A stretch of DNA of 64,000 nucleotides, taken from positions 1 through 64,000 of the forward strand of contig NZ_JAMXMC010000017.1 of assembly GCF_024055665.1 (NCBI RefSeq). The letters are read 5' to 3'. The notes beneath the pieces are model-generated. The model saw only the letters and a list, made by a program, of their open reading frames with translations, searched no databases and was not told the origin of the DNA. This document shows positions 24,212 through 46,744 of the stretch, one piece after another. Positions within the stretch are counted from its first letter, which is position 1, and each line of letters starts with the position of its first letter. The position numbers and the translations under genes were made by a program. The DNA is from Ideonella oryzae (GTDB taxonomy: Bacteria; Pseudomonadota; Gammaproteobacteria; Burkholderiales; Burkholderiaceae_C).

Positions 24212-24233
24212 GGACGGGCCCACCCGCTTGACC

Positions 24234-26516: not shown

Positions 26517-26517
26517 C

Positions 26518-27897
26518 ATGCTCGGAGCACTGCGCCGCCGCTGGGGCAGCGTCCCCTCGCGCCGCGAGCCGGCCTCGCCCGAAGGCCTGATCCACCCCGC
26601 CGACCTGCCCACCCGACCGGGTCCGGAGGGCAGGGCTGCTGCGGCTGCCCCCCGCACCACCCGCCCGACGCCACGCCAGGCCCTGAGTGACCGGCGGCTG
26701 CGCCCGGGCGATCTGGAACTGCTGGGCGCCGTGCAGGCCGCCCAGCGCACCGAATCCCACCCCCGGGTCACCGGCGCGATCTACCTGATGCTGGCCACCG
26801 TGGTGCTGGCCACCGCCTGGGCCTCGCTGACCCACATCGAGATGGTCACCCGCGCCGAAGCCCGGGTGGTGCCCGAAGGCCGCGAGCAGATCGTCGCCAG
26901 CCTGGAAGGCGGCATCCTGCGCGAGCTGCTGGTGCACGACGGCGACCAGGTGCGCCGCGGCCAGGTGCTCGCCCGCCTGGACCCGACCCGCTTCGAATCG
27001 CAGCAGAACGAGGGAGAGGCCAAGCGCCTGGCCCTGCTGGCCACCCAGGCCCGGCTCAAGGCCGAGGCCAGCGGACGCGCGCTGGTCTTCCCGGCCGAGC
27101 TGGCCGAGCACCCCGAGCTGCAGGCCACCGAACGCGAGGCCTACCAGGACCGTCGGCAGGTGCTGGACGAAGCCAGCGCCGCCAGCCGCCACAGCATCGC
27201 CCTGGTGCGGCGCGAACTGGACATGTCCGAGGCCCTGTCCCGCAAGGGGCTGATGTCCGACGTGGAGGTCATGCGCCTGCGCCGCCAGATCGGCGAAATG
27301 CGCCAGCAGGCCGACGAGCGCCGGGGCCGTTTCCGCCAGGAGGCCAGCACCCAGTTGCTGCAGGTGCAGTCCGAACTGGCCCAGCTGGCCCAGCAGCAGG
27401 TGGCCCGCGACGACGCGGTGCGCCGCACCGAGCTGGTCTCGCCGGTGGACGGCCTGGTCAAGAACATCCGCACCCGCACCCCCGGCGGCGTGGTGGCCGC
27501 CGGCGCGCCGGTGCTGGAGATCGTGCCGGTGGGCCAGCGCCTGCTGGTCGAGGCCCGCATCAAGCCCGGCGAGATCGGCTTCGTGCACGTGGGCCAGAAG
27601 GCAGAGATCAAGCTCGCCGCCTACGACTACAACCTCTACGGGGGCCTGGAAGGCACGGTGGAGAACATCAGCCCCGACGTGCTGGGTGACGCCGAGCGGG
27701 CCAACGGCGGCCCCGACGCGACCTGGTTCCGCGCCCTGGTGCGGGTGGAGCGCTCCACCCTGCGCGGACCGGACGGCACGCTGGCCGTGCAACCCGGCAT
27801 GACCGGCTCGGTGGAGATCAACACCGGCCAGCGCACCGTGCTCGAGTTCGTGCTGCGCCCCCTGCTCAAGGCCCGCGAAGCCTTCCGCGAGCGCTGA
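26518..27897 (+). CDS. Type I secretion membrane-fusion protein (HlyD/LapC type)
   Basis: 459 residues. It has a cytoplasmic N-terminal stretch of about 90 residues rich in Pro/Arg, then one membrane helix (AIYLMLATVVLATAWASLTH). A lipoyl/barrel-sandwich half follows (VVPEGREQIVASLEGGILRE), then a long alpha-helical hairpin (residues about 180-290) and the second lipoyl half (VSPVDGLVKNIRTRTPGGVV). The C-terminal beta domain ends the protein (GMTGSVEINTGQRTVLEFVL). This is the bridge between the ABC exporter and the outer-membrane channel. The longer frame upstream lies inside the ABC gene, so the ATG at 26518 was chosen. Confidence 0.94.
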   Translation: MLGALRRRWGSVPSRREPASPEGLIHPADLPTRPGPEGRAAAAAPRTTRPTPRQALSDRRLRPGDLELLGAVQAAQRTESHPRVTGAIYLMLATVVLATAWASLTHIEMVTRAEARVVPEGREQIVASLEGGILRELLVHDGDQVRRGQVLARLDPTRFESQQNEGEAKRLALLATQARLKAEASGRALVFPAELAEHPELQATEREAYQDRRQVLDEASAASRHSIALVRRELDMSEALSRKGLMSDVEVMRLRRQIGEMRQQADERRGRFRQEASTQLLQVQSELAQLAQQQVARDDAVRRTELVSPVDGLVKNIRTRTPGGVVAAGAPVLEIVPVGQRLLVEARIKPGEIGFVHVGQKAEIKLAAYDYNLYGGLEGTVENISPDVLGDAERANGGPDATWFRALVRVERSTLRGPDGTLAVQPGMTGSVEINTGQRTVLEFVLRPLLKAREAFRER

Positions 27898-27973: not shown

Positions 27974-29335
27974 ATGAACAAGCCGCCCATCAGCCCCCCG
28001 TCCGCCACGCACCTGGTCTGGCCCGCCGCCGTGCTCATCGGCCTGCTGGCCGGGCTGCTGCTGTTGGCGCCCGCGGCCCAGGCGGCCTGCGCCGAGGGGC
28101 TGCAACCCCTCTCCACGCCGCCTCAGGCCGCGCCCGACGTCTCCCCCCGGACCAGCCTGCTGACCCTGGTGCGCGCCGCCGAGCAGCGCAGCAAGCTGGT
28201 GGGCGCGGCCCGCCTGCTGACCGATGCGGCCCAGGCCGATGCCGAGGAAGCCCGGGCCGGGGGCCTGCCCCAGGCCGCGCTGAGCACCACGGCAGGCCCG
28301 GTGGGCAGCCAGGTCGAAGGGGACCCGCTGCGCACCCGCTCGCAGCTGCGCCCGGCCCTGACGGTCAGCGCGCCGCTGTACGACGCCGGCCGCGTGGATG
28401 CCCTGGGCCGCTGGCGCGACAGCCTGGCCGAAGCCGCCCACCAGGGCCAGCTCAGCACCCAGGAGCAGGTGGCCCTGCAGGCCGTCACCCTGGCCCTGGA
28501 CCGTGACCGCTACCGCCTGCACCAGCAGGTCTGGAACCAGTACGCGCAGAAGGTCTGCGGCCTGGTGGATGCGCTGGAGCAGATCGTCGCGGTGGACAAG
28601 GGCCGCCGCAGCGAGCTGGTGCAGGCCCGCAAGACGCTGCAGCAGGTGCTTCTCTCACGGGCCCAGTCCATGACCCAGCTGCGCCAGACCGAGGTCAAGC
28701 TGCGCCGCCTGGTGGGTGACACCCTGCCCGAGATCGGCCCGCTGTCGGCCCTGCTGCTGGACGTGCCCGGCCTGGACGACCTGGACCGGCTGGCCGCCAA
28801 CAGCCCCGCCATCGTGCAGATGGACGCCCAGGCCCAGGCCGCCAACCACCTGGCCGACGCCACCCTGGCCGGCCAGAAGACCCAGGCCAGCTGGCAGCTG
28901 GCGGTCAGTCGCAACCTGATGGGCGACCACACCGCCGCCTGGAGCGCCGGCGTGACGGTGAGCATCCCGCTGTTCAACCCTGGTTTCGCACCGGCCGCGC
29001 AATCGGCCCAGCTCAAGGCCGAGGCCGCCCGGCTGCAGCGCGAGGACACGCTGGAATCCCTGGTGTCGCGCCTGGCCGAGGTGCATGAGCAGGCCCGTGC
29101 CGCGATGACCCGCGCCCACGACGTGGTGGACACCCTGCAAAGCAGCGAACAGGTGCGCGAGGCGACCCTGCAGCAGTGGCAGCAGATGGGCCGCCGCTCG
29201 CTGTTCGACGTCGTCTCGGCCGAAGGCGACCACTACAGCCTGCGCATCGCCTATGTCGATGCGCTGCACGACGGCCAGCAGGCCGTGGCCCTGCTCTGGT
29301 CCCTGGCCGGCGGGGTGACACAGCCCTTGCGCTGA
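27974..29335 (+). CDS. TolC-family outer-membrane channel protein
   Basis: 453 residues. It has a signal peptide (AVLIGLLAGLLLLAPAAQA-ACAEG), then the two-repeat coiled-coil layout of outer-membrane efflux proteins. Repeat features include LYDAGRVDALGRWRDSLAEA (the strand-turn region typical of TolC/LapE) and its counterpart VTVSIPLFNPGFAPAAQSAQ. Each is followed by long helices. It completes the exporter (ABC, adaptor, channel) in one plus-strand run, 76 bases after the adaptor gene. Confidence 0.9.
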   Translation: MNKPPISPPSATHLVWPAAVLIGLLAGLLLLAPAAQAACAEGLQPLSTPPQAAPDVSPRTSLLTLVRAAEQRSKLVGAARLLTDAAQADAEEARAGGLPQAALSTTAGPVGSQVEGDPLRTRSQLRPALTVSAPLYDAGRVDALGRWRDSLAEAAHQGQLSTQEQVALQAVTLALDRDRYRLHQQVWNQYAQKVCGLVDALEQIVAVDKGRRSELVQARKTLQQVLLSRAQSMTQLRQTEVKLRRLVGDTLPEIGPLSALLLDVPGLDDLDRLAANSPAIVQMDAQAQAANHLADATLAGQKTQASWQLAVSRNLMGDHTAAWSAGVTVSIPLFNPGFAPAAQSAQLKAEAARLQREDTLESLVSRLAEVHEQARAAMTRAHDVVDTLQSSEQVREATLQQWQQMGRRSLFDVVSAEGDHYSLRIAYVDALHDGQQAVALLWSLAGGVTQPLR

Positions 29336-30913: not shown

Positions 30914-32296
30914 TCAGACGGCGGCGAACCCCAGGTCGGTCCGCGCCGCGCGGGCGCGGCTGCGCTCCTGCAGGCCGGTGTGGCGGCGCACCAGCACCAC
31001 CCGCAGGGTGTGGGCCTCGGCCAGCGCGCAGGGTTGGTCGTCGGCGCCCAGGCCACCCAGGTGCACCAGCCCCAGCGCGCGGTCCAGCGGGCCGGGCCGT
31101 TGCCAGAAGCTGTGGGTCCAGGGGGCCAGCTGGTGGACGATGGCCGCAGCCGGGTCGCCACCGGCCGGACGGGGGCAGCGCAGCACCACCCGCCCTTCCG
31201 GGGCCAGGTGGGCCAGCGCGGCGTCAAGCCGGTCCGCGTCGGTCGCGGGATGCCAGCGGCCCAGTTCGATCAGCTCGAAGGCCGCATCCGGTTCGGATGT
31301 GAAAGTCTCGGCAGCCTGACCCGGGCCGGGCCAGGCCTGCCAGCCGGCCAGCGCGCCCAGGCGGGCGAGGTCGGCGTTCAGGCGACGCGGCGCGCCGTGC
31401 GCGGCGACGGGCGGATGGGCCTGCCACCAGGCGGACAGCGTGGCCAGGGCCTCGCGCAGTTCGTCCAGGGCCGCGACCCCCCGCCTCTGCTCGGCCTGCA
31501 GGCCCGCTTCGGCCTGGGCGGCCAGGGTCTGGGGCGTCCAGGGCCAGGGGGCGCCCTGGGGCCAGCTCAGCACCGACTCAGCCAGTTCGGCCGGCCAGCC
31601 CGCGAGACCGTGGCCCTCCGGCGTTTCGACCACCACGGCGGTGCCACGGGCCAGGGCCAGCTGGGCCAGCAAGGGCTCGGCGCTCTGCCCGGGCTGGGGA
31701 GCGAGCAGCAGCACGGCGCGGGCCTGGGCCAGCATCTCGTCCCATTCCGGGCCATGCAGGGCCTGCTCCAGCCGGGCCACGCTCACGCCCTGGCGTTCCA
31801 GGGCCAGCAGCGTAGTGCGCTGGTGATCGGTCGGGGCATGGGGCAGCAGCAGGTCCAGCGGCCTGGCGGCCAGCGCGCGGCGCTCGGCGCCGGGCGCTGC
31901 CGCGGGCTGCCAGCGCAGCAGCGGCGGGGTTTGCTGCGTTGCGCCGCGCTGCGCCGCCAGGGTCTGGGGCTCGGTGCACAGCAGCGGCCAGCGCTGGGCC
32001 AGCCGCCAGGGCACGGCGGCATGGCCGGGGGCGCCCGGCGGGGCCAGCGGGGGGGTCACCAGGGCCACTCGGTGGCCCTGGGCGGCTTCTTCGTCAAAGC
32101 CCCAGCCGATGCCCAGCACCAGGTTGAGTGCGTCGGGGCGCAGCTGGCGGGCGGCCAGACTCACCGGGTGGCCCAGGGCGCCCAGCTGCGCCTTCAGGGT
32201 CAGGGCCAGGTCCAGGCTGCCCAGGGCCGCGGCCTCGCCCTCGGGCAACTGCAGGCACAGGTGGATGGGGCCCTGGGGTTCGGAAATGGCGCTCAT
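30914..32296 (-). CDS. Unrecognised 460-residue protein coupled to a glycosyltransferase
   Basis: 460 residues; not assigned to a known family. It is rich in Ala, Leu and Pro, with no signal peptide or membrane segment. The N-terminal part (LHLCLQLP-like start, LVLGIGWGFDEEAAQGHRVA) could be a GT-B-like Rossmann half. The C-terminal part (AFELIELGRWHPATDADRLD, then AHLAPEGRVVLRCPRPAGGD) resembles the late strands of a class I SAM methyltransferase. The ATG at 32296 overlaps the glycosyltransferase stop by four bases, so the two are made together and may act on the same substrate. Longer frames upstream are out-of-frame readings of the glycosyltransferase gene. Confidence 0.7.
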   Translation of the reverse strand: MSAISEPQGPIHLCLQLPEGEAAALGSLDLALTLKAQLGALGHPVSLAARQLRPDALNLVLGIGWGFDEEAAQGHRVALVTPPLAPPGAPGHAAVPWRLAQRWPLLCTEPQTLAAQRGATQQTPPLLRWQPAAAPGAERRALAARPLDLLLPHAPTDHQRTTLLALERQGVSVARLEQALHGPEWDEMLAQARAVLLLAPQPGQSAEPLLAQLALARGTAVVVETPEGHGLAGWPAELAESVLSWPQGAPWPWTPQTLAAQAEAGLQAEQRRGVAALDELREALATLSAWWQAHPPVAAHGAPRRLNADLARLGALAGWQAWPGPGQAAETFTSEPDAAFELIELGRWHPATDADRLDAALAHLAPEGRVVLRCPRPAGGDPAAAIVHQLAPWTHSFWQRPGPLDRALGLVHLGGLGADDQPCALAEAHTLRVVLVRRHTGLQERSRARAARTDLGFAAV

Positions 32297-33291
32297 GCCA
32301 GTCGCTCCAGACGCTGCCGGCGGGCCGCGACGATGTCGGCCTCCAGCGCGCTCAAGACGGTGAAGACCTCGTCGTCGAAGGCCTGGCGCTGGCGCTCGAT
32401 CCACTGCCGGTAGGGCTGCAGCTCGGCGGCCAGGCGGCCATGGTCGGCCAGGGCCTGGGCGATGCGGCGCAGCACCTGCGGCACGGTGCCGGGCTGGCGC
32501 TCGTCGAACTTGCTGGCCGCCGGGATGGGCACGTCCACCATGTTGCCCGCGCTGCCCTGGGTGTTGGTGATGACCACCGCGCCGCACAGCGCCGCCTCGC
32601 GCGGGATGCGGTCGCGCCCCGGGTGCGGGCCGAAGTCGATGTAGACCTTGGCGGTGGCCAGCAGCTGGGCCACCTCGGCCGGGCTCATGTTCTGGATGGG
32701 CACCCAGCGCCAGCTGGGGGGCGCCACCTGCATCAGGGCCTGGGTGAAGGCCAGGCCCTTCTTGGGGTTGTAGGCGATGATGTCCTCGCGCGGGCCGTCG
32801 CGCAGCGCGCGGGCCCGGTCCAGGATCTCGTCGCGCACGTAGTCGGTCAGCAGCCGCGCGCTGGCGCCGCGCTGGGCCACCCACTGGCGGGCGTATTCGG
32901 ACTGGGCCCAGTGCACCACCCGCTGCGCGGGGTCGAACACGAAGTCCAGCGGACTGGCACCGGTCAGCCCGGCGCCGCGCTGGGCCTCGGCCCGGCTCTG
33001 GAAGTGCTCCACGCTGAGCCACCACAGCACGCGGCGGGCGTGGCGCAGCTCCAGCAACAGCTGGGGGCCGGTCTCGGGCACCACCACAACGCTGTCGGGC
33101 GCATCCACCACCTCGCGCACCACCCGCGGCCGGTAGAGGCGGAACACGCCGGGCGTGGGGTCCGGGTCGTCGTCGGGCAGGTAGCGCATGGCCATGTCGA
33201 AGCCCAGCCGCTGGCCGGCATCGACGAACTGGTGCAGCGCTTCCGGTCCGCCGGTGACGGACGAGGCTGGGCAAAGGACGTGGACCTTCAT
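32293..33291 (-). CDS. GT-B-like glycosyltransferase
   Basis: 332 residues. The start MKVHVLCPASSVTGGPEALH is typical of GT-B glycosyltransferases (N-terminal Rossmann strand with a Gly-rich acceptor loop). The C-terminal half carries REDIIAYNPKKGLAFTQALM and VYIDFGPHPGRDRIPREAAL followed by CGAVVITNTQGSAGN, a donor-nucleotide-sugar site with a conserved Glu in PREAALCG. The end is a charged helix (YRQWIERQRQAFDDEVF). It lies just after the terminator of the giant repeat gene, on the same strand, and is coupled to the unrecognised gene at 30914-32296. Donor and acceptor are unknown. Confidence 0.82.
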   Translation of the reverse strand: MKVHVLCPASSVTGGPEALHQFVDAGQRLGFDMAMRYLPDDDPDPTPGVFRLYRPRVVREVVDAPDSVVVVPETGPQLLLELRHARRVLWWLSVEHFQSRAEAQRGAGLTGASPLDFVFDPAQRVVHWAQSEYARQWVAQRGASARLLTDYVRDEILDRARALRDGPREDIIAYNPKKGLAFTQALMQVAPPSWRWVPIQNMSPAEVAQLLATAKVYIDFGPHPGRDRIPREAALCGAVVITNTQGSAGNMVDVPIPAASKFDERQPGTVPQVLRRIAQALADHGRLAAELQPYRQWIERQRQAFDDEVFTVLSALEADIVAARRQRLERLA

Positions 33292-33330
33292 GCGCGCCAG
33301 TCTCGCCGCCCTGCCCCGCCCCCAAGACGT

Positions 33331-33360
33331 GAAAAAGCCGGGCCCGAGCCCGGCTTTCCC
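33331..33360 (-). terminator. Rho-independent terminator of the giant repeat gene
   Basis: Perfect 10-bp stem AAAGCCGGGC/GCCCGGCTTT (33334-33343 and 33348-33357) with a four-base loop. On the minus strand it is followed by a T-run (CTTTTTC across 33337-33331). It starts about 33 bases after the stop codon of the giant gene and precedes the glycosyltransferase start at 33291. Confidence 0.85.
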
Positions 33361-33390
33361 TGTCTCTGGCGCCCGGGGGGCGCCTGGGCC

Positions 33391-36300
33391 TCAGATCAGC
33401 GGCAGGTTCTGGTGGCGGGCCAGTTCATCCTGCAGGCTGCTGTGCAGCGTCGGCGACACCTGCGTGTTGGCCATGTGGTGGGCCGCGGTGGCCGCGCCGC
33501 CCAGCAGATCGGTGCTCGGACCGGCCAGCAGCTCATGCAGCGACGGCGTGGCGGTGGTGGCCGCGACCGTGTGCGTGGCCGACACCTCGGTGCCGGTGGT
33601 GTCCGCCGTGCCGGCCGTGGTGCCACTGGTGTTCTTGCTGAACCAGACGTCGGCCACCTGGTGGGTGCTGCCGTCCGTCGTGGTGTAGCTCGACACCAGG
33701 CCCACGTAGTTGCCGTTGTTCACCTCGCTGGTGGTCTGGGCATGCAGGTTGATGCTGGCCACGCCCACCTCGGCCAGGGTCTTGAGTTCCCCGGTTTCGG
33801 TGACACCATCGTGGTTGGCATCCACCCACACCTTCAGCTCGTTCCAGTGGGCGTCCTTGGCATCCAGCACGCCGTCGTGGTTGCTGTCCTCGAAGGCCAT
33901 GGCCGCGTAGCCGTTGCCGGCGCGCTGGCCATTGGCGCCCACGGTGGCCACACCGAACAGCTCGCTGCCGTTGTTGATCAGGCCGTCGCCGTTGCGGTCC
34001 ATCACCAGCAGGCCGTCGCCGCTGCCCACCCAGCCGACCTGCTGCTTCGTGCCCGAAGCGTTCAGGTCGAAGGACACGCCCGACGAGGCGGCGATCGTGT
34101 GGATGCCGTCGCCGTTGAGGTCCAGCACGATGGGCGAGGCGGCGAAGAAGGCGTCCAGCTGGGAGGCCGACATCACCGCCACGTCGTCGGTGGCGAAGGC
34201 GGCGATCTGGTCCATCGACATCTTGGCGATGTCCGCGGTGGACAGGGCCTGGATCTGGTCGGTGGTGAAGGCCACGATCTGGTCGGTCGTCAGCGCATGC
34301 GCCTGGGCCGTGGTCAGGGCCGCGATCTGGTCGGTCGTCAGCGCGGCGAACTGGTCGGTGGTCAGCGCGGCCACCTGGGCGGTGCCCATGGCGGCGAACT
34401 GGCTGGCGCCCAGGGCCTGCAGGTCCTCGGTGGCGATGGCGGCCACCTGGTCGGAGGTCAGGGCCACCACGGCCGCGGTGCCGAGCTGGGCGAACTGGTC
34501 GGTCGTCAGCGCGACGATCTGGTCCGTCGTGAAGGCATGCAGCGCGGTGGCACTGAGCGCCCGCAGGTCGGCCGATTCCAGCACCGCCACCTGGTCGGTG
34601 GTCAGCGCGGCGATCTGGGCGGTGGACAGACCGGCCACCTGGGCGGCGCTCATGGCCACCACGTCGGCCGTGCTCAGGGTCTGCAGCGCATCGGTGGCCA
34701 GGGCGTGCACACCGGCAGTGCCCAGGGCCACGATGTCGGCCGTGCCCAGCGCGGTCAGCTGGTCGGTGGTCAGCGCGGCCACCTGGGCGGTGGTCAGCGC
34801 GGCGATCTGCGTGGTGCTCAGGGCGTCGATGTCCTCGGTGCCCAGGGCCTCGATCGCGGCCGTGCCCAGGACCCGCAGGTTGGTCGTGCCCAGGGCCGCC
34901 ATGTCGGCCGTTTCCAGCGCGGCCACCTGGTCGGTGGTCAGGGCCGCCACCTGGGCGGTCGTCAGGGATGCCACCTGGGTGGTGGTCATGGCCTCGATCG
35001 CGGCGGTGTCCAGGGCCTGGATGCTGCCGGTGCTCAGCAGGCGCAGGTTGGCGGTGCTCAGGGCCGGGATGTCGCTGGTGTCGAAGGCCGCCAGCTGAGC
35101 CGTGGTGAGCGCCAGCGCCTGGGCCGTGGTCAGCGCCGCAATCTGGCTGCTGCTCAGGGCGTTCAGGCTGTCGGTGGCCAGGGTGGCGATCTGGGCGGTC
35201 GTCAGCGCGGCGACCTGGGTGGGGGTCAGGGCCACCAGCTGGTCGCTGCTCAGCACGGCCAGTTGATCGGACGACAGGGTGCGCAGGGCCACGGTGCTCA
35301 GATGGGCCAGGTCGGCGGTCTCCAGCGCGGCCATCTGGCCGGTGGTGAAGGCCGCTGCCTGTGCACTGCTGAGGGCGGCAAACTGGGTCGTGGTCAGCGC
35401 GTTGAGCTGGTCGGTGCCCAGGCCGGCGATCTGGGCCGTGGTCAGCCCGCTGATCTGCAAGGTGGACAACACGGACAGCTGGCCCGAGCTCAGCGCATTG
35501 AGCTGGTCCGTACCCAGGGCGGACACCCCGGCCTTGCTGATGGCCAGCAGGTCCGCGGTTTCCAGCACGGGCATCTGGTCGGTCGTCAGCGCGGCCAGCT
35601 GGGCCGTGCTCAGACCCACCACCTGGGCCGTGCTCAGGGCCACCACGTCGGCGGTGCTCAGGGCGGCCACCTGGGCGGTGCTGAAGCTGGCCAGCTGGGC
35701 GGTGCTCAGCGCGGCGATCTGGGCGGTGGTCAGCGCCCCCACCTGGTCGGTGGTCAGCGCACGCAGCGCGGCCGTGCCCAGGGCCCGCAGGTCGACGGTC
35801 TCGATGGCAACCACCTGGTCGGTGGTCAGCGCGGCCACCTGGGCGGTGGTCAGCGCCGCCGCCTGCAGCGAGCTCAGCGCGGCCACCTGGGCGGTGCCGA
35901 GCGAAGCCAGCGTGGCGGTGGCCATCGACTGCAGCGCGATCGTGCTGATGGCGGCCAGATCGGCCGTTTCCAGGCCGATGCCCTGGTCGGTGGTCAGCGC
36001 AGCCACCTGGGCGGCGGTCAGTGCAGAGGCCTGGGCCGTGGTCAGGGCCGCGATCTGGTCGGTGCCCAGCACGGCCACCTCAGCCGTGCCCAGGGCCTTC
36101 AGGGCCGTGGTGCCCACGGCGGCCAGGTCCTGGGTGGACAGGGCCGCGGCCTGGGCCGTGGTCAGGGCCGCCAGCTGGGTGGTGGTCAGGGCCGCGAACT
36201 GCGCAGTGGTCAGGGCATCGAGGTTGTCGGTGCTCAGACCGGCCGTCTGCGAGGCGGTCAGGCCGGCCACCTGGGTGGCGGTCAGCGCGGCCATCTGGTC

Positions 36301-39300
36301 ACTGGTCAGCGCGTTGAGCTGGTCGGTCCCCAGGGTCTTGAAGTTGGCCACGCTCAGGGCACGCAGGTCGTCGGTGCCGATGGCAACCATCTGGTCGGTG
36401 CTCAGGGCCGACAGCTGCACCGTGCTCAGCGAAGCCATCTGGCCGGTGGTGAGCGCGGCCACGGCCGCCGTGCTCAGCGCAGCCATGCCCTGGGTGGACA
36501 AGGCCGACAGGGCCAGGGTGCTCAGCGCGGCCACGTCGGCGGCTTCCAGCGCGGCAATCTGGTCGGTGCCCAGGGCCCCGAGCTGCGCGCTGGTCAGCAC
36601 CTTGTAGTGGTCGGTGGTGAGCGCCGTCAGGTTCTCGGTGCCCAGACCGGCCAGTTGGGCGGTGGTCAGGGCATAGGCCTGGGCGGTGGTCAGGGCCGCG
36701 ATCTGGTCGGTGGTCAGCGCATTGAGCTGGGCGGTGCCCAGGCTCTTGAAGCTGGCCGCGCTGATCGCACGCAGGTCGGCGGTTTCGATCACGGCGACCT
36801 GGCCGGTGGTCAGGGCCACCAGCTGGTCGGTGCCCAGCGCGGCCACCTGGGTGGTGGTCAGCGCCTGGATGCCGTCACTGCTCAGCGCAGCGACGGCGGC
36901 CGTGCTCAGGCCGCGCAGTGCGGCCGTGCTCAGCGCGGCCAGGTCGGCCGCCTCCAGCGCGGCGGCCTGGTCGGTGCCCAGGGCCGCCGTCTGGCTGGCG
37001 TTGAGCATGGCGTACTGAGCCGTGGTCAGGGCCACGAGTTGGGCCGTGCCCAGCCCGGCCAGTTGCGCGGTGGTCAGCGCGCTGACTTGGGCAGTGCCCA
37101 GCGCGGCCACCTGGTCGGTGCCCAGCGCATTGAGTTGGCTGGTGGACAGAGCAGCCACCTGCATGCCATTCCAGGCCCGCAGGTCGGCGGTTTCCATGGC
37201 GGCGATCTGGCCGGTGGTCAGGGCCGCCACCTGGGCGGTGCTCAGCGCGGCGGCCTGCAGCGTGCCCAGGGCCTGGACAGCGTCGGTGGTCAGGGCCGCC
37301 ACCTGGGCGGTGCTCAGGGCACGCACGTCCACCGTGGTGAGGGCCGCCAGATCGGCGGTCTCCAGCGCGGCGATCTGGTCGGTGGTCAGCGCGGCCACCT
37401 GGGCGGTGGTGAGCTGGGCGAACTGGGCGGTGCCCAGGGCGTTGAGGTGGTCGGTGGTCAGGCCGGCCAGTTGGGCCGTGCCCAGGCCCTGCACCTGGGC
37501 AATGGTCAGGGCGCCGACCTGGTCCGTGGTCAGTGCATTGAGCTGGTCGGTGCTCAGCACGGCGAGCTGGGGCAGACCCAGGGCGCGCAGGTCGCCGGTC
37601 TCCAGCGCGGCCACCTGGTCGGTGGTCAGGGCAGCGGCCTGTGCGGTGGTCAGGGCGGCCACCTGGGCGGAGCCCAGCGCCTGCACGGCGGCGGTGCCCA
37701 GCGCGGCCACCTGGTCGGTGCCCAGGACGCGCAGCTGGCCGGTGGTGAAAGCGGCCACCTGGTCGGTGGTGAGGGCGGCGACCTGGTCGGTGCTCAGCGC
37801 TCCCAGCGCCGCGCTGCCAAGCTGGCGCAGATCGACTGTTTCGATGGCGGCCACCTGGTCGGTGCTCAGCGCGGCCACCTGGGCGGTGGTCAGCGCCGCG
37901 GCCTGGGTGCCGGTGAGCGCGGTGACCTGGTCGGTGCCCAGGCCCGCCAGGGCGGCGGTGGTCAGCGCGGCCACGGCGGCCGTGCTCAGGGCAGCCAGCG
38001 AGACCGTGCCCAGGCCGACGAGCTGACCGCTGGTCAGGGCGGCAGCCTGGCTGGCGCTCAACACGGCGGCCTGGGTGGTGCTCAGGGCGCCCAGGGCATC
38101 GGTGGTCAGCGCCGCCATCTGGCCGGCGCCCAGGCCCCGCAGGGCTGCGGTGCTCAGGGCGGCGACGTCAGCGGTTTCCAGCGCCAGCACCTGGTCGGTG
38201 CTCAGGGCGGCCAGCTGGGCCGAGGTGAGCATCGCGAACTGGCCGGTGCCCAGGGCATTGAGGTTGTCGGTGCTCAGCGCGGCCACCTGGGTGGTGGTCA
38301 GGGCCTGCACCTGGCTGTTGGCCAGGGCGGCGACCTGCCCCGTGCCCAGGGCGTTGAGCTGGTCGGTGCCCAGCGAGGCCAGCTGGGTGCCGCTGAGCTG
38401 GCGCAGGTCAGCCGTGCTCAAGGCCGGCATCTGGTCGGTGGTCAAGGCCGCGAGCTGGTCGGTGCTGAGCTGGGCCACCTGGGCGGTGCCCAGGGCCTGC
38501 ACGGCGTCGGTGGTCAGCGCGGCGATCTGCGCCGTGGTGAGACGGGCCACCTGGGCGGTGCTCAGGGCGGCCACCTGAGCGGTGGTCAGCGCATCGATCT
38601 GGACGGTGCTCAGGGCCTGGATGGCGGCGCTGCCCAACTGGCGCAGGTCAGCAGTTTCCAGGGCTGCCACCTGGTCGGTGGTCAGCGCGGCAATCTGGCC
38701 GGTGGTCAGGGCCGCCGCCTGGGCGCCGGTCAGCGCGACAACCTGATCGGTCGTCATGGCCGCCAGGGTCGCGGTGGTCATGGCCGCCACGGCATTGACG
38801 CTCAGGGCCGCCAGGGCGCCGGTGCCCAGGGCAGCGATCTGGTCGCTCGTCAGGGCCGCCGCCTGGGCGGTGGTCAGGGCGGCCGCCTGGGCGCTGCCCA
38901 GGGCCGCAATGCCGTCGGTGGTGAAGGCCGCGATCTGCCCGGCCCCCAGACCACGCAGTGCGGCGGTGCCCAGGGCGGCCACATCGGCCGTCTCCAGCGC
39001 GGCGACCTGATCGGTGCTCAGCGCGGCCAGCTGTGCACTGGTCAAGGCGGCGAACTGGGCGGTGCCCAGGGCGTTGAGGTTGTCGCTCACCAGATTGGCC
39101 AGGTCGCTGGTCTCCAGCCCGGCCACCTGGGCCACGCTGAGCTGGGCGAACTGATCGGTGCTCATCGCGTTGAGCTGGTCGCTGCCCAGCGCGGCCACCT
39201 GGGCCGAGCTGAAGCGGGCCAGATCCTCGGTCTGCAGGGCCGCGGCCTGGTCGCTGGTGAGTGCGGCCACTTGGGCGGTGGTCAGCGCGCCGGCCTGGTT

Positions 39301-42300
39301 GGTGGTCAGGGCCTGCACGGCGTCGGTGGTCAGCGCGGCGATCTGCCCGGTGGTGAGCTGGCGCAGCTGGGCCGTGCTCAGCGCGGAGAACTGGTCGGTG
39401 GTCAGGGCCGCCACCTGGTCGGTGGTCAGAGCCTGCAGGGCGGCGGAGCCCAGGGTCCGCAGGTCACCGGTCTCGATGGCCTGGATCTGGTCGGTGGTCA
39501 GGGCCGCCATCTGGGCCGTGGACAGGCCGGCCATCTGGTCGCTGGTCAGGGCCTGGATCTGGCTGGTGCTCAGGGCGGCCAGGGTGGCGGTGACCATGCC
39601 GCTGAGCGCGGCGGTGCTCAGCATGGCCAGGTCGGCGGTTTCCATGCCGACGATCTGGTCGCTGCTCAGCGCAGCCACCTGGCCGGAGGTCAGCGCCTCG
39701 GCCTGGGCCGTCGTCAGCGCGGCCAGTGCGTCGGTGCCCAGAGCGCCGATCTGGCCGGCGTTCAGGGCCCGCACGGCGGCGGTGCTCAGGTGGGCCAGGT
39801 CCTGGGTCTCGAGGGCGGCGATCTGGTCGGTGGTCAGGGCAGCGGCCTGGGCCGCGCTCATCACCGCAAAGTGCTGGGTGCCCAGGGCGTCGAGGTTGTC
39901 GGTGCTCAGGCCGGCCAGTTGGCCGGTGGTCAGGGCCACGAGTTGGGCCGTGCTCAGGGCCGCCACCTGGTCCGTGGTCAGTGCATTGAGCTGGTCGGTG
40001 CTCAGGGCCTTGATGGCGTCGGCATCCAGCATCCGCAGGTCGGCCGTTTCGAGCGCGGCCACCTGGTCGGTGGTCAACGCAGCCACTTGGGCGGTGCTCA
40101 GCAGGGCCACCTGGGCGGTGCTCAGGGCCACCACCTGGTCGGTGGTGAACGCGGCGAGCTGACCGGTGGTCAGGGCCACCACCTGCTGGGTGGCCAGTGC
40201 GGCCACCTGGGTGCCGGTCAGGGCCTGGATCTGGTCGGTGCTCAGGGCGTGCAGTGCGGCAGCGCCCAGCTGGCGCAGATCACCCGTCTCCAACGCGGCC
40301 ACCTGGCCAGTGGTCAGGGCCGCCACCTGGGCCGTGGTCAAGGCACCCGCCTGGGCGCCCGTCAGGGCGACGATCTGCCCGGTGCTCAGGGCAGCCACGG
40401 CATCGGTGCTCAGTGCGGCCAGGGCTGTGGTGCTCAGGCGCGCCAGATCGGCCGTCTCCAGGCCCGTGATCTGGTCACTGCTCAGCGCGGCGGCCTGGGC
40501 CGAGGTCAGCACGGCCACTTGGTTGGTGGTGAGGGCCGCGACCTGGTCGGAGTTGAGGGCGGCCACGGCGGCCGTGCCCAGATTGTGGATGGCCGCGGTG
40601 CTGAGCACGGCGACATCAGCCGTCTCCAGGGCGGCCACCTGGTCGGTCGTCAGGGCAGCGGCCTGGGTGGCGCTGATCGCAGCGAACTGGTCGGTGGTCA
40701 GGGCATTGAGCTGGTCGGTGCCCAGCCCGGCCAGCTGCCGGGTGGTCAGGGCCGCCACCTGGTCGGTGGCCAGGGCCGAGAGCTGCGTGCTGTCCAGGGC
40801 ATTGAGCTGGGCCGTGCTCAGGCTCACCAGTTGGCTGGTGTTCAGGGCCAGCATGTCCTCGGTGCCCAGGGCGGTGACCTGGTCGGTGGTCAGGGCGGCG
40901 ACCTGGCTGGTGGTGAGCTGCGCGACCTGCGTCGTGGTCAGGGCGGCCACGGCATCGGTGGTCAGGGCGGTGATCTGGGCGGTGTCCAGGGCGCGCAGCG
41001 TGGCCACCTTCAGGGCGGCCACATCGGCGGTCTCCAGCGCCGCGATCTGGGCGGTGGTCAGGGCCGCCGCCTGGGCGGCGCTCAGGGTGGCGAACTGGGC
41101 AGTGGTCAGGGCGTCGAGCTGGTCGGACCCCAGGCCCGCCAGCTGGGCGGTGGTCAACGAAGCCACCTGGGCCGTGGTCAGGGCCGCCATCTGGCCGGTG
41201 GACAGGGCATTGAGCTGGGCGGTGCCCAGCGTCACCAGCTGAGCGGTGCTCAGGGCCATCAGGTCCTGGGTTTGCAGCGCCGCCACCTGGTCGGTGGTCA
41301 GGGCCCCCAGCTGGGCGGTGGTCAGTTGGGAGACCTGGCCCGTGGTCAGGGCCTGGATGCCATCGGTCGTCAGGGCAGCCACCTGGCCGTTGGACAGGGC
41401 GCGCAGCTGACCGACGGTGAGGCCGGCCACCTGAGCGGTGGTCAGTGCAGCCACCTGGGCGGTGCCCAGGGCCCGCACGGCGGCGGTGCCGAAGCTGCTC
41501 AGATCCTGGGTCTGCAGGGCGGCGACCTGGTCGGTGCTCAAGGCGGCAACCTGGGCGGTGGTCAGAGCCGCCGCCTGGGCGGTGGTCAGGGCCACCACCT
41601 GGGCGGTGCTGAGGCCGGCCAACGCGGTGGTGTTCAGTGCATCCAGCGTGGCAGTGGCCAGGGCGGCCAGGTCCTGGGTTTCGAAGCCGGCGAGCTGGTC
41701 GCTGGAGAGCGCGGCGGCCTGCGTGGTGGTGAGGGCCGCGGCCTGCGTGGTCGTCATGGCCACCAGCTGATCGGTGCTCAGGGCGGCGATGGCGGCCGTG
41801 CCCAGCGCGCGCCAGGACGCGGTGTTCAAGGCGGCGATCTGGGCCGTCTGCAGGGCGGCGATCTGGGCCGTGCCCAGCACGGCGACCTGGGCCGTGCCCA
41901 GCGCGGCCACCTGGGCCGTGGTCAGGGCGGTGAGCTGGTCGGTGCCCAGGCCAGCCATCTGGGCCGTGCCCAGGCGGCTCACCTGGTTGGCGCTCAGCGC
42001 GGCCACCTGGCCCGAGGACAGGGCGTTGAGCTGGGCGGTCTGCAGGGCAGCAACCTGGGCCGTGGTCAGCGCCGCCAGATCCGCTGTTTCCATGGCGGCC
42101 ACCTGGTCGGTGGTCAGCGCGCGCAGCTGGGTGGTGGTCAGGGCGGCGGTCTGGGCGGTGCCCAACGCGCGCAGGTCATCGGTGCCCAGCGCAGCCACCT
42201 GGGCCGTGGTCAGCGCGGTCAGCTGGGTGGTGCCCAGGGCCGCCGCCTGGGCGGTGGTCAGGGCGGCCACCTGGGCGGTGGTCAGGGCTTGGACGGCCCG

Positions 42301-44490
42301 CGTCTGCAGGGAGGCGAGGTCCACCGTCTGCATGGCCTGGATCTGGTCCGTGGTCAGCGCCGCCACCTGGGCGGTGGTGAGTGCAGCCACCTGGCCGGTG
42401 CTCAGCGCCACGATCTGGTCGGTGCTCAGCGCGGCCGTGGCCGCGGTGCCCAGGGCGACCAGCGAGGTGGTGCTCAGGCGCACCAGGTCGGTGGTCTCCA
42501 GGCCCGCCACCTGGTCGCTGGTGAGGGCGCCCACCTGGGCGCTGGTCAGGGCGGCCGCCTGGGCGGTCGTCAGGGCCTTGATTTCGTCGGTGGTCAACGC
42601 GGCCACCTGGGCGGTGCTCAGGGCACGCAGGGTCGCGGTGTTCATCGCGGCCAGGTCGGCGGTTTCCATCGCCTGGATCTGTGCGGTGGTCAGGGCGGTG
42701 ACCTGGGTGGACTTGATCGCGGCCACCTGGGCCGTGGTCAGGGCGGCCAGGTTGTCGGTGCTCAGCCCGGCCAACTGCCGGGTGGAGAGTGCGCCCACCT
42801 GGGCGGTGGTCAGTGCACCCACCTGCGCGGTGGTCAGGGCGTTCAGATGGGCGGTGCCCAGCCCGGCCAGCTGGGCGGTGGTCAGCGCGCTCAGGTTGGC
42901 CGTCTTCAGGGCAGGCATCTGGTCGGTGGTCAGCGCGGCCACCTGGGCGGTGCTGAACTGCACCGTCTGTGCCGTGCTCAGGGCGCGCAGGTCATCGGTC
43001 GACAGCGCCGCCACCTGGGCGGTGGTGAAGGCGCGCACCTGGGCGGCGCTCAGATTGGCCACCTGGGCCGTGCTCAGCGCGGCGATCTGGTCGGTGCTCA
43101 GCGCCGCGACCTGGGCGGCGCTCAGGGCCTTGATCTGGCTGGTCTTGAGCGCGGTCAGGCCGTCGGTGCCCATGGCCACCAGGGCCGAGGTGCCCAGCGC
43201 AGCCACCGCGGCGGTGCTCAGCGCGGCCACGTCGGCCGTCTCCATGGCGGAGGTCTGGGTGCTGGTCAGTGCCGCGGCCTGGGCCGTGGTCAGGGCCGCC
43301 ACCTGGGTGGTGGTCAGGGCATTCAGATGCGTGGTGTCCAGCGCGGCAATCTTGCCGGTTGCCAGGGCCACCAGCTGGGCCGTGCTCAGGGCCTGCACGC
43401 CATCGGTCGTCAGCGCATTGAGCTGGGCGGTGCTCAGCGCGCCCAACGCCGCGGTGGTGATGGCCCGCAGATCGGCCGTTTCCATCGCGGCCAGCTGGTC
43501 GGTCGTCAGGGCCGCCAGCTTGGTGCCGCTGAGCGAGGCGAACTGGGCCGCGGTCAGTGCCCGCAGGTCTTCGGTGGTGAGATGGGACAGCTGGTTGGTG
43601 GTCAGCGCGCCCACCTGGGCGGTGGTCAGACCAGCAATCTGGCTGCTGCTCAGGGCCTCCAGCTGCGCCGTGCTGAGCGCGGCCAGACTGCTGGTCTTGA
43701 GGGCATTCAGGCTGGCGGTGCCCATCACCGAGATCTGATCGGTGCTGAGGGCCGCGGCCTGGGTGGCCGACAGGGTGTTGGCCTGGGCCGTGGTCAGGGC
43801 CTGGACGCTGCCGGTGCTCAACGCAGCGACCGCCGCCGTGCCCAGCACCGCGATGGAGGCCGTGCTCAGCGCGCGCAGGTCGGCCGTCTCCAGGGCTGCG
43901 ATCTGGTCGGTGGTCAGCGCCACCACCTGGCGGGTGGTCAGGCCGTTGACCTGGGCGGTGGTCAGCGCCTGGATGCTGTCGGTGCTCAGCGCCGCCACCG
44001 CCTGGGTGGTCAGGGCCCGCACATTGGCCACGGACAGCGCGGCGAGATCGGCGGTCTCCAGCTCCGAGGCCTGCCGGGTGGTCAGCGCCGCCGCCTGGGC
44101 CGTGGTCAAGGCCGCAAACTGGCTGGTGGACAGCGCGTTGAGGTGATCGGTGCTCAGGGCGGAGAACTGCGCCGTGGTGAGCTTGCTGACCTGGGTGGTG
44201 GTCAGGGCCGCCATCTGGGTCGAGGTCAACGCGTTGAGCTGGGCGGTGGTTATCGCCACCAGTCCGGCCGTGGAGATGGCCCGCAGGTCCTGGGTCTCCA
44301 TCGCGGCCACCTGGGTGGTGGACAGCCCGGCCAGGCGGGAGGCCGGGATGACGGCCACCTGGGCGGTGGTCAGGGCAGCGATCTGAGCCGTGCTGAACGC
44401 GGCCCAGTCCTCGGTCGTCAGCTTGGCGATCGACGCCGTGGACAGGGCGGCAATCTGGGCGGTCGACAGACTGGGGATGATCGTTGCCAT
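33391..44490 (-). CDS. Giant octapeptide-repeat protein, probable T1SS substrate
   Basis: 3,699 residues. After seven residues (MATIIPS) come about 430 unbroken tandem octapeptides of consensus L-[ST]-T-[AD]-Q-[VIL]-A-A. A variant octad, [LM]-E-T-A-D-[LV]-x-x, recurs at intervals of 7, 7, 10 and 10 octads, giving a 34-octad unit. The last 252 residues are different: IVLDLNGDGIHTI, LLVMDRNGDGLINNGSELFG, AFEDSNHDGVLDAKDA and VWVDANHDGVTETGELKTL form four EF-hand-like calcium loops common at the ends of type I secretion substrates. There is no N-terminal signal peptide. I saw no cysteine in the repeat stretches I traced. The start at 44490 has GGAG eight bases upstream. Export by the nearby type I system and a surface or matrix role are inferred; the fold is unknown. 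T-x-x-Q resembles a helix capping box, so short helices are as possible as a beta solenoid. Confidence 0.9.
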   Translation of the reverse strand: MATIIPSLSTAQIAALSTASIAKLTTEDWAAFSTAQIAALTTAQVAVIPASRLAGLSTTQVAAMETQDLRAISTAGLVAITTAQLNALTSTQMAALTTTQVSKLTTAQFSALSTDHLNALSTSQFAALTTAQAAALTTRQASELETADLAALSVANVRALTTQAVAALSTDSIQALTTAQVNGLTTRQVVALTTDQIAALETADLRALSTASIAVLGTAAVAALSTGSVQALTTAQANTLSATQAAALSTDQISVMGTASLNALKTSSLAALSTAQLEALSSSQIAGLTTAQVGALTTNQLSHLTTEDLRALTAAQFASLSGTKLAALTTDQLAAMETADLRAITTAALGALSTAQLNALTTDGVQALSTAQLVALATGKIAALDTTHLNALTTTQVAALTTAQAAALTSTQTSAMETADVAALSTAAVAALGTSALVAMGTDGLTALKTSQIKALSAAQVAALSTDQIAALSTAQVANLSAAQVRAFTTAQVAALSTDDLRALSTAQTVQFSTAQVAALTTDQMPALKTANLSALTTAQLAGLGTAHLNALTTAQVGALTTAQVGALSTRQLAGLSTDNLAALTTAQVAAIKSTQVTALTTAQIQAMETADLAAMNTATLRALSTAQVAALTTDEIKALTTAQAAALTSAQVGALTSDQVAGLETTDLVRLSTTSLVALGTAATAALSTDQIVALSTGQVAALTTAQVAALTTDQIQAMQTVDLASLQTRAVQALTTAQVAALTTAQAAALGTTQLTALTTAQVAALGTDDLRALGTAQTAALTTTQLRALTTDQVAAMETADLAALTTAQVAALQTAQLNALSSGQVAALSANQVSRLGTAQMAGLGTDQLTALTTAQVAALGTAQVAVLGTAQIAALQTAQIAALNTASWRALGTAAIAALSTDQLVAMTTTQAAALTTTQAAALSSDQLAGFETQDLAALATATLDALNTTALAGLSTAQVVALTTAQAAALTTAQVAALSTDQVAALQTQDLSSFGTAAVRALGTAQVAALTTAQVAGLTVGQLRALSNGQVAALTTDGIQALTTGQVSQLTTAQLGALTTDQVAALQTQDLMALSTAQLVTLGTAQLNALSTGQMAALTTAQVASLTTAQLAGLGSDQLDALTTAQFATLSAAQAAALTTAQIAALETADVAALKVATLRALDTAQITALTTDAVAALTTTQVAQLTTSQVAALTTDQVTALGTEDMLALNTSQLVSLSTAQLNALDSTQLSALATDQVAALTTRQLAGLGTDQLNALTTDQFAAISATQAAALTTDQVAALETADVAVLSTAAIHNLGTAAVAALNSDQVAALTTNQVAVLTSAQAAALSSDQITGLETADLARLSTTALAALSTDAVAALSTGQIVALTGAQAGALTTAQVAALTTGQVAALETGDLRQLGAAALHALSTDQIQALTGTQVAALATQQVVALTTGQLAAFTTDQVVALSTAQVALLSTAQVAALTTDQVAALETADLRMLDADAIKALSTDQLNALTTDQVAALSTAQLVALTTGQLAGLSTDNLDALGTQHFAVMSAAQAAALTTDQIAALETQDLAHLSTAAVRALNAGQIGALGTDALAALTTAQAEALTSGQVAALSSDQIVGMETADLAMLSTAALSGMVTATLAALSTSQIQALTSDQMAGLSTAQMAALTTDQIQAIETGDLRTLGSAALQALTTDQVAALTTDQFSALSTAQLRQLTTGQIAALTTDAVQALTTNQAGALTTAQVAALTSDQAAALQTEDLARFSSAQVAALGSDQLNAMSTDQFAQLSVAQVAGLETSDLANLVSDNLNALGTAQFAALTSAQLAALSTDQVAALETADVAALGTAALRGLGAGQIAAFTTDGIAALGSAQAAALTTAQAAALTSDQIAALGTGALAALSVNAVAAMTTATLAAMTTDQVVALTGAQAAALTTGQIAALTTDQVAALETADLRQLGSAAIQALSTVQIDALTTAQVAALSTAQVARLTTAQIAALTTDAVQALGTAQVAQLSTDQLAALTTDQMPALSTADLRQLSGTQLASLGTDQLNALGTGQVAALANSQVQALTTTQVAALSTDNLNALGTGQFAMLTSAQLAALSTDQVLALETADVAALSTAALRGLGAGQMAALTTDALGALSTTQAAVLSASQAAALTSGQLVGLGTVSLAALSTAAVAALTTAALAGLGTDQVTALTGTQAAALTTAQVAALSTDQVAAIETVDLRQLGSAALGALSTDQVAALTTDQVAAFTTGQLRVLGTDQVAALGTAAVQALGSAQVAALTTAQAAALTTDQVAALETGDLRALGLPQLAVLSTDQLNALTTDQVGALTIAQVQGLGTAQLAGLTTDHLNALGTAQFAQLTTAQVAALTTDQIAALETADLAALTTVDVRALSTAQVAALTTDAVQALGTLQAAALSTAQVAALTTGQIAAMETADLRAWNGMQVAALSTSQLNALGTDQVAALGTAQVSALTTAQLAGLGTAQLVALTTAQYAMLNASQTAALGTDQAAALEAADLAALSTAALRGLSTAAVAALSSDGIQALTTTQVAALGTDQLVALTTGQVAVIETADLRAISAASFKSLGTAQLNALTTDQIAALTTAQAYALTTAQLAGLGTENLTALTTDHYKVLTSAQLGALGTDQIAALEAADVAALSTLALSALSTQGMAALSTAAVAALTTGQMASLSTVQLSALSTDQMVAIGTDDLRALSVANFKTLGTDQLNALTSDQMAALTATQVAGLTASQTAGLSTDNLDALTTAQFAALTTTQLAALTTAQAAALSTQDLAAVGTTALKALGTAEVAVLGTDQIAALTTAQASALTAAQVAALTTDQGIGLETADLAAISTIALQSMATATLASLGTAQVAALSSLQAAALTTAQVAALTTDQVVAIETVDLRALGTAALRALTTDQVGALTTAQIAALSTAQLASFSTAQVAALSTADVVALSTAQVVGLSTAQLAALTTDQMPVLETADLLAISKAGVSALGTDQLNALSSGQLSVLSTLQISGLTTAQIAGLGTDQLNALTTTQFAALSSAQAAAFTTGQMAALETADLAHLSTVALRTLSSDQLAVLSSDQLVALTPTQVAALTTAQIATLATDSLNALSSSQIAALTTAQALALTTAQLAAFDTSDIPALSTANLRLLSTGSIQALDTAAIEAMTTTQVASLTTAQVAALTTDQVAALETADMAALGTTNLRVLGTAAIEALGTEDIDALSTTQIAALTTAQVAALTTDQLTALGTADIVALGTAGVHALATDALQTLSTADVVAMSAAQVAGLSTAQIAALTTDQVAVLESADLRALSATALHAFTTDQIVALTTDQFAQLGTAAVVALTSDQVAAIATEDLQALGASQFAAMGTAQVAALTTDQFAALTTDQIAALTTAQAHALTTDQIVAFTTDQIQALSTADIAKMSMDQIAAFATDDVAVMSASQLDAFFAASPIVLDLNGDGIHTIAASSGVSFDLNASGTKQQVGWVGSGDGLLVMDRNGDGLINNGSELFGVATVGANGQRAGNGYAAMAFEDSNHDGVLDAKDAHWNELKVWVDANHDGVTETGELKTLAEVGVASINLHAQTTSEVNNGNYVGLVSSYTTTDGSTHQVADVWFSKNTSGTTAGTADTTGTEVSATHTVAATTATPSLHELLAGPSTDLLGGAATAAHHMANTQVSPTLHSSLQDELARHQNLPLI
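34150..44469 (-). repeat. Tandem 24-bp coding repeats (430 octads) with 816-bp higher-order unit
   Basis: 10,320 bases, exactly 430 x 24 bp without a frame break. Tracing ETADL-type marker octads shows spacings of 7-7-10-10 octads in successive units, for example around LETADVAV, LETADLAR, LETGDLRQ, LETADLRM and LETQDLAH. This makes a 34-octad (816-bp) superunit, about 12.6 copies, with at least one shortened 7+10 unit. The array therefore probably grew by duplication of a large block rather than one octad at a time. Confidence 0.9.
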
Positions 44491-44590
44491 TCGGCGTACT
44501 CCGACAGGTGAACAGATGGAATCCCCTCCCTGGGGACTCCCTGGTTCTGGAGTTCGGCCGGTGCGCTACAGACTTGAAGCCATCCCTTCG

Positions 44591-45978: not shown

Positions 45979-46042
45979 GCCACGGCCCGGCAGCCGGACG
46001 GCCGCCGGGCCGGGCCCAGCCCGCCTGAACGCGGGCTGCGCT

Positions 46043-46744
46043 TCAGGCTTCCAGGTCGAAGACCAGCACTTCGGCGCCCTCGCCGCCGGACACCTCCAGC
46101 CGCGTCTCGCCGCTGAGCGCCAGAGCGTCACCGGCCTGCAGAGCATGCCCGTTGACGGTCAGCGTGCCGCGGGCCAGATGCACCCATGCCTTGCGTGCAG
46201 GGTCCAGCATCAGCTCGGCGGACTCATCGCCGTCGAACAGGCCGGCCCGCAGGCTGGCATTGGCATGCAGCGTCACCGAGCCCTCGCGCCCGTCGGGCGA
46301 GGCCACCAGCCGCAGCCGGCCGCGCTTGTCCTCATCGGAAAAGGCCTTTTGCTCGTAGCCCGGGGTGTGGCCCAGGCGATCGGGCAGCAGCCAGATCTGC
46401 AGGAAATGCGTGGTCTGCCCTTCGGCATGGTTGAACTCGCTGTGCCGCACACCGGTGCCGGCCGTCATGCGCTGCACCTCGCCCGGGCGGATGGCCGTGC
46501 CATTGCCCATGCTGTCCTTGTGCGCCAGCTCGCCGTCCAGCACATAGCTGACGATCTCCATGTCGCGGTGGCCATGGGTGCCGAAACCGGTGCCCGGCGC
46601 CACCCGGTCCTCGTTGATCACCCGCAGGTTGCCGAAGCCCATGTGGGCCGGGTCGTAGTAGTCGGCAAACGAGAAGGTGTGGAAGCTGCGGAGCCAGCCG
46701 TGGTCGGCCAGGCCCCGTTCGCCGGACTTGCGCAGAGTGATCAT
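46043..46744 (-). CDS. Pirin-family bicupin protein
   Basis: 233 residues. The N-terminal cupin carries GTHGHRDMEIVSYVLDGELA and the metal-ligand pattern GVRHSEFNHAEGQTTHFLQI of pirin/YhhW proteins. The shorter C-terminal cupin ends in LEVSGGEGAEVLVFDLEA. YhhW-type pirins bind iron and have quercetinase-like activity in vitro; the role in vivo is open. It is transcribed divergently from a LysR regulator 115 bases away, an arrangement common for pirin genes. Confidence 0.93.
   Translation of the reverse strand: MITLRKSGERGLADHGWLRSFHTFSFADYYDPAHMGFGNLRVINEDRVAPGTGFGTHGHRDMEIVSYVLDGELAHKDSMGNGTAIRPGEVQRMTAGTGVRHSEFNHAEGQTTHFLQIWLLPDRLGHTPGYEQKAFSDEDKRGRLRLVASPDGREGSVTLHANASLRAGLFDGDESAELMLDPARKAWVHLARGTLTVNGHALQAGDALALSGETRLEVSGGEGAEVLVFDLEA

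Follow-up and report, generated by a model that had tools for sequence, protein, structure and literature searches.

A 3.40-octad period in the nested repeats of a giant Ideonella oryzae protein, and a possible exported screw rod

Why would a protein made almost entirely of octapeptides (octads) repeat itself at intervals of 7, 7, 10 and 10 units? The question is raised by a giant gene on the minus strand (33391..44490; ATG start, 3699 aa) of the window, i.e., the whole stretch of 64,000 nucleotides analyzed here (positions 1 to 64,000 of contig NZ_JAMXMC010000017.1, Ideonella oryzae, assembly GCF_024055665.1). New here is the explanation of the 7+7+10+10 pattern by a period of 3.40 octads. 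We read this period as 3.4 helices per turn of a screw, a simple structural reading of the nested repeat that, at the level of sequence, holds in most of the long arrays tested.

Residues 9–3448 form 430 consecutive in-phase octads occupying 10,320 bp (34147..44466, minus strand) with an unbroken frame, exactly the array described in a first-pass annotation made from the sequence alone. The final residue is L, M, F, I, V or W in all 430 octads, and S or T occupies position 1 or 2 in 416 of them. The 34-octad (816-bp) super-period claimed by the same annotation is borne out at both levels. Octad-lag identity is highest at lag 34 (0.563 against a mean of 0.448 for lags 1–139) and never exceeds 0.472 (lags 1–59) in 1000 shuffles of octad order; in the DNA self-comparison over lags of 24–2399 bp, the top lag is 816 bp. 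Strict marker octads of the type [EQ]xxD[LVIM] number 38, and 35 of the 37 gaps between them are sums of 7s and 10s, whereas 2000 random placements yield 8.5 such gaps on average and never more than 16. The proposed order 7+7+10+10 is followed in stretches (by eye, octads 168–297, counting weaker or missing markers at 236, 253 and 270); elsewhere, 7+10 alternation is mixed in. Further lag peaks at 17, 51, 68, 85 and 119 reveal a common unit of 17 octads, which can be filled either as 7+7+10+10 or as 7+10.

Multiples of about 3.4 were first guessed from the lags 7, 10, 17 and 34, and Fourier analysis over octads was performed afterwards. It gave a dominant period of 3.401 at 11.3 times the median power, compared with at most 2.3 times in 100 shuffles. 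Each of 7, 10, 17, 24, 27, 34 and 44 is the integer nearest to a multiple of 3.40. Related arrays were taken from 73 named loci (one genome scan, best 80 of 544 confirmed matches), of which the 66 with at least 60 octads in phase were analyzed, the seven below 60 being left out. A peak at 3.2–3.6 rises above the array's own 20 shuffles in 62 of the 66 (mean 3.401, s.d. 0.018). The leading super-repeats vary among these arrays (24, 27, 31, 34, 44 and others), and 302 of the 330 top-five lags coincide with a multiple of 3.4 rounded to the nearest integer, which is true of 29% of lags overall. In the full-residue spectrum, the global peak lies in the band for 48 arrays and another, higher peak exists in 18; in the net-charge spectrum, the 3.28–3.57 band holds the global maximum in 61/66 and is significant (p < 0.01) in 62/66. 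The 3.40 period is carried by acidic octads.

An order sample was composed of the array loci of genomes of the order Burkholderiales matching Pfam family PF20080, chosen without regard to likeness to the giant's array. The full-residue peak near 3.4 stands above shuffles in four of seven arrays (genomes G058, G278 on contigs C3 and C4, and G187 on C11), and a charge peak at 3.38–3.50 is the global maximum in six of nine loci. Left out of these counts were G166, G180, G131 and G129, which lack a long run of octads in phase, as well as G234 and G251, with hardly any octads. This sample is weaker than the named loci and agrees partly with the 3.4 period. Several of its arrays are irregular in their own ways. 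Those of loci L058 (G129), L052 (G166) and L056 (G131) are broken every few octads by extra residues (NG, QG), which therefore shift the 8-residue phase. A 9542-codon frame in G180 (C16, ~292722–321348; L054, L055) contains irregular, interrupted ALTTAQ-like octads, with a gene for a GT41-family glycosyltransferase about 1 kb off. In G187, the C16 array (~118300–122200) has no 3.4 charge period, and no GT41 gene was found in the 40 kb fetched around it; the C11 array of the same genome has both the charge period and a GT41 gene.

A structural prediction was fixed after the Fourier analysis and before any structure model. When the giant is folded at 5/17 turn per octad, position-3 Asp residues gather at 55 degrees (R = 0.70) and the Glu and Asp of the marker octads at 141 and 136 degrees (R = 0.89 and 0.79), all within one sector. 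Octads at 191–296 degrees are neutral or slightly basic, and position-6 Arg (R = 0.61, centre 194 degrees) lies at the edge of the acidic sector. The AlphaFold2 model of octads 175–228 (mean pLDDT 92.6) shows a solenoid with one helix of 5–6 residues per octad, which supports the regular rod with T-x-x-Q capping short helices suggested by the first-pass annotation; the repeat alignment comprised the 13 windows, out of 21 tried, that align gaplessly. In a residue-coupling contact test, the signal was strongest at lag 3, and lags 1–14 were all far above the null because of the super-repeats, so this test is supportive at most.

The giant matches PF20080 (ALTTAQ repeat; E = 0, 2652.5 bits, cut-off 26.4) in 128 stretches. 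The family describes the same octad, its function is stated nowhere in the Pfam match output, and its 38-position model contains neither the 17/34-octad order nor the 3.40 period. The octads also align without gaps over 110 residues to HeliScrew4 (PDB 9zem, E = 3e-26), whose name suggests a designed protein. HeliScrew4 has 120 residues, mostly with Pro at octad position 2 (TPEQIAAL), and possesses no giant array, calcium module or operon; the likeness is one of sequence alignment, and 9zem is not among the structure-search matches of either model of the giant. The first-pass view that no characterized family was known for this nested architecture is therefore not supported: the octad falls in a named family and aligns with a solved structure, one of two outcomes that this annotation had named as refuting; the other, a lack of 816-bp periodicity, did not occur. 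We call the rod class undescribed solely on the basis of searches of the PMC library, which returned nothing on the ALTTAQ repeat, HeliScrew, or GT41 with type I secretion. Matches to Pfam CAAP1 and LRR_EndoS, with no stretch passing alone, and to leucine-rich-repeat PDB chains were rejected as matches to Leu-periodic sequence.

The nearest solved folds are mesothelin, armadillo repeats and a phage receptor-binding protein, none of them close. An armadillo repeat has 42 residues in three helices. Mesothelin chains (7ued, 8cyh, 8fsl) head the Foldseek results (best E 1.7e-4, probability 1.00); the human protein forms a superhelix like the giant's model, with TM scores of only 0.21–0.39 and rmsd of 8–11 Å over long alignments, and the fragment 7u9j superposes at 2.2 Å over 66 residues. 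No mesothelin chain occurs among the PDB sequence matches of the giant. Mesothelin, stereocilin and otoancorin have been predicted to be superhelical (excerpt of PMC2628672). The receptor-binding protein of Clostridium difficile phage CDHS-1 (7qlr) shares 12% identity, with a Z score in the range of common helical arrangements; residues 358–505 of its chain C form a short-helix stack similar to that of the giant's C-terminal model (rmsd 2.2 Å over 120 residues).

Downstream of the octads, residues 3453–3618 (33637..34134, minus strand) have the fold of an FrpC-type self-processing module with four calcium sites. The FrpC module (6sjw, PMC7078468) begins with a cleavable Asp before Pro, whereas the giant has Ser3452-Pro3453 at the module start. 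Ser or Thr replaces the cleavable Asp in 55/55 array-linked X-Pro modules, a set gathered with a Pro-demanding pattern and redundant (L064, L065 and L079 closely resemble one another, and two modules come from each of four loci); self-cleavage of the giant's module is therefore unlikely, judging from these residues. Ser/Thr-Pro as a mark exclusive to octad proteins was discarded: nine array-less X-Pro modules, read from 16 regions fetched for other module-like matches, comprise five with Asp, three with Ser and one with Thr. Likewise, loss of FrpC Asp478 as a second catalytic ligand (absent in 35/35 array-linked modules) was dropped as non-discriminating because this residue is also absent in four of five Asp-Pro modules of the same genomes. 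Asp-Pro FrpC-type modules of these genomes (L138, L143, L144, L146 and L148) have no octads just upstream and are possible self-cutting relatives. The C-terminal tail (33394..33636, minus strand) is modelled by AlphaFold2 with low confidence (pLDDT < 50 at model residues 295–303 and 312–357) and ends in a short helix (359–364); it may be a type I secretion signal. The giant lacks the glycine-rich nonapeptide calcium repeats of RTX proteins, in that its four Pfam matches up to E = 1 include no haemolysin calcium-repeat family.

A set of plus-strand genes next to the giant is consistent with its export and glycosylation. The first (22343..24211) encodes an OGT-like GT41 glycosyltransferase with PF13844 (2.9e-74, 250.7 bits, cut-off 25) and tetratricopeptide repeats within residues 78–182; its closest PDB relative is Xanthomonas OGT (XcOGT, 2jlb; 2.4e-89, residues 92–614 aligned). 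It is followed by a type I secretion ABC permease/ATPase of the LssB subfamily (24087..26516; TIGR03375, 787.3 bits, cut-off 693.1), a HlyD-type periplasmic adaptor (26341..27897; TIGR01843, 320.8 bits, cut-off 208.65) and a TolC-like outer membrane channel (27974..29335; PF02321, 5.8e-19; TIGR01844, 73.9 bits, below the cut-off of 225.15). The giant is linked to genes for all three parts of a type I exporter, and together with the FrpC-type module this gene set supports the first-pass proposal that the calcium-loop C-terminus points to secretion.

GT41 genes recur near octad arrays well above chance. Among 300 genomes of the order, 14 contain PF20080 (the window's own genome included; G234 and G251 weakly) and 163 contain GT41; in eight of the 14, a GT41 gene lies within 13 kb of the array (expected 0.21, P 1e-12), or in seven of 13 with the own genome removed. 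Mere presence of GT41 is not significantly commoner in the 14 PF20080 genomes than in the other 286 (p 0.097). In G096, G166 and G193, GT41 is found on a different contig from the array, which sits at the end of its own. As for the named loci, flanks of up to 10 kb contain a GT41 match in 17 of 73, whereas the HD-GYP and AraC neighbours have no match there. Whole-genome searches of 22 of the named genomes found GT41 in all 22, within 30 kb of the fetched array in ten (expected 0.63, P 1e-10; 12 counting a second module copy in G315 and G319) and within 7 kb in four (expected 0.22); the array contig ends within 30 kb in G307, G308 and G313. By our count, 59 of the 73 named loci belong to Burkholderiales (Roseateles, Rhizobacter, Aquabacterium, Ideonella, Duganella, Rugamonas and others) and 11 to Pseudomonas, Rhizobium/Sinorhizobium/Ensifer, Azospirillum, Nitrospirillum, and one metagenome-assembled genome (MAG) each of Spartobacteria and Acidobacteria; the remaining three are MAGs without close taxonomic placement.

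Other features of the region are less informative. Just downstream of the giant, a 332-aa protein (32293..33291, minus strand) is possibly a second glycosyltransferase, a weak suggestion from its WsaF_C match (E = 0.027, 14.7 bits, below the cut-off of 27); homologues turn up in two named loci out of 73, and in L073 the homologue immediately follows the giant. The gene immediately upstream of the giant, likewise on the minus strand (44731–46146), encodes a DUF3391/HD-GYP protein. Its candidacy as a cyclic di-GMP partner was rejected: no homologue was found at 1e-10 in the 73 named loci. An antisense frame at 32128–44511 (plus strand, GTG start, 4127 aa), mirroring the GC-rich array, was judged a non-gene, since it is the minus strand that encodes PF20080 and the FrpC-type module; no family scan was made of the plus-strand translation. 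Elsewhere in this genome (G000:C2:56193-62130), a second GT41 gene adjoins three flagellin genes and probably encodes an FlmG-like flagellin glycosyltransferase.

We hypothesize the following mechanism. Each octad would form a helix of 5–6 residues, capped by Thr/Ser and Gln/Asp in the model, and these helices would pack by their Leu and V/L/I residues into a solenoid in which about 3.4 helices make one screw turn; 7, 10, 17 and 34 octads would therefore lie near whole turns (2.06, 2.94, 5 and 10). Marker octads at such spacings would form an acidic stripe running the length of the rod, and duplicated sequence would survive mainly in near-whole-turn units. The chain would have about 126 turns and a length of some 110–130 nm, assuming a rise of 9–10 Å per turn. 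While still in the cytoplasm, it would receive O-linked glycans on some of its many Thr/Ser residues from the neighbouring OGT-like GT41, and the type I system would then export it, C-terminus first. On meeting external calcium, the C-terminal module would fold and cap the rod with no self-cutting. The acidic side could bind cations or neighbouring rods, and the whole would serve as a surface or matrix fibre, most likely in adhesion or cell-cell contact.

Several observations count against the screw reading and the sugar-coated rod built on it. Four of the 66 arrays fail the period test (L110, L117, L127 and L135), and the scan behind the 73 named loci selected for resemblance to the giant's array, which favours recovery of the same pattern. 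In the order sample, the full-residue peak is not above shuffles in G281, G096 and G187-C16, and the charge peak fails in G187-C16, G193 (27 octads) and G245 (35 octads). Per-octad sampling can neither separate 3.4 from its aliases nor give handedness, the sole structural estimate, a coarse span ratio to armadillo-type chains, is 3.60 ± 0.06 (16 rows of our choice from 50 structure-search rows) and not 3.40, and AlphaFold2 may be confident yet wrong on perfect repeats, as an excerpt of PMC11795689 describes for beta-solenoids. Regarding GT41, three of the 14 PF20080 genomes have none (two of these with only weak PF20080 matches), seven of the 22 searched genomes (Roseateles, Pelomonas and two MAGs) have it on other contigs despite enough array flank, the 13-kb and 30-kb limits were chosen after the distances were seen, and no exported partner is evident for a third GT41 in the window's genome. 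One could regard the 34-octad super-repeat as the mere footprint of tandem 816-bp duplication without structural cause. Third codon positions indeed agree more often at lag 816 (0.607, against 0.550–0.573 at lags 24, 168 and 240), so duplication did occur, and super-repeats alone raise residue coupling at all lags tested. However, an ungoverned duplication unit need not give one period to 62 arrays with differing leading lags, nor place so many top lags on the 3.4 lattice; moreover, of the 1967 codons that differ at a lag of 272 residues, 1384 are non-synonymous, and the marker spacing is nonetheless kept. We consider the footprint explanation improbable. That duplications were kept when they preserved the screw phase is the simplest joint reading.

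The role of the neighbouring enzyme invites a second alternative, in which the type I system exports the giant and GT41 acts on something else. GT41 is common anyway in the order, and the genomes that carry it off the array's contig point the same way; against this stand the proximity far above expectation in two samples and the gene order GT41-ABC-HlyD-OEP (outer-membrane efflux protein) kept beside the array in G058 (L047). We consider this alternative less likely than not. More serious is the proposal that the rod, instead of being an adhesin, coats the cell surface, works as a motility fibre or is released freely. Giant adhesins of the LapA/MpAFP type combine an N-terminal retention module with Ig-like repeats, whereas octads begin at residue 9 of our giant and no such domain, nor any other N-terminal one, is among its Pfam matches. 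The Pfam-scanned neighbours include no motility or coat marker and are not decisive either way, and this proposal falls only just short of an even chance. Judging from other giant proteins exported by type I systems, the likeliest role is adhesion or matrix building. Export, glycosylation and adhesion of the giant are what we infer, and an extracellular, O-glycosylated, type I-exported and calcium-capped screw rod serving adhesion or cell-cell contact seems to us, on balance, moderately probable.

Our broader proposal is more tentative, and we lean slightly against it: that bacteria widely possess undescribed single-chain nanorods, 3.4-helix screws each sugared by a dedicated cytoplasmic OGT, exported by type I systems and closed by a non-cutting calcium cap, whose super-repeats read out the pitch and align charged stripes. 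If so, super-repeats of 17, 24, 27, 34 and 44 octads report the pitch of the screw, and sequence by itself would be enough to derive the pitch of a protein superhelix, much as a coiled coil is recognized by its heptads. A large family of surface giants, so far unexplained, would acquire a fold, a rule for its repeats and a likely modifying enzyme, and the rods would offer natural scaffolds on which the order of octads sets the surface chemistry.

The proposed system has partial parallels among known ones. Its Ser/Thr-Pro modules would be a natural, probably non-cutting counterpart of the FrpC module. In the HMW1A-HMW1B-HMW1C system, a cytoplasmic glycosyltransferase is dedicated to an exported surface protein (excerpt of PMC3983070), and FlmG is similarly dedicated to one or a few exported surface proteins, the flagellins (excerpt of PMC7591256). 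HMW relies on two-partner secretion with modification of Asn, and FlmG modifies flagellins, whereas the giant and its putative GT41 partner adjoin a type I system. If our reading is true, GT41, the giant and the type I exporter together would represent a type I counterpart of the HMW adhesin triad.
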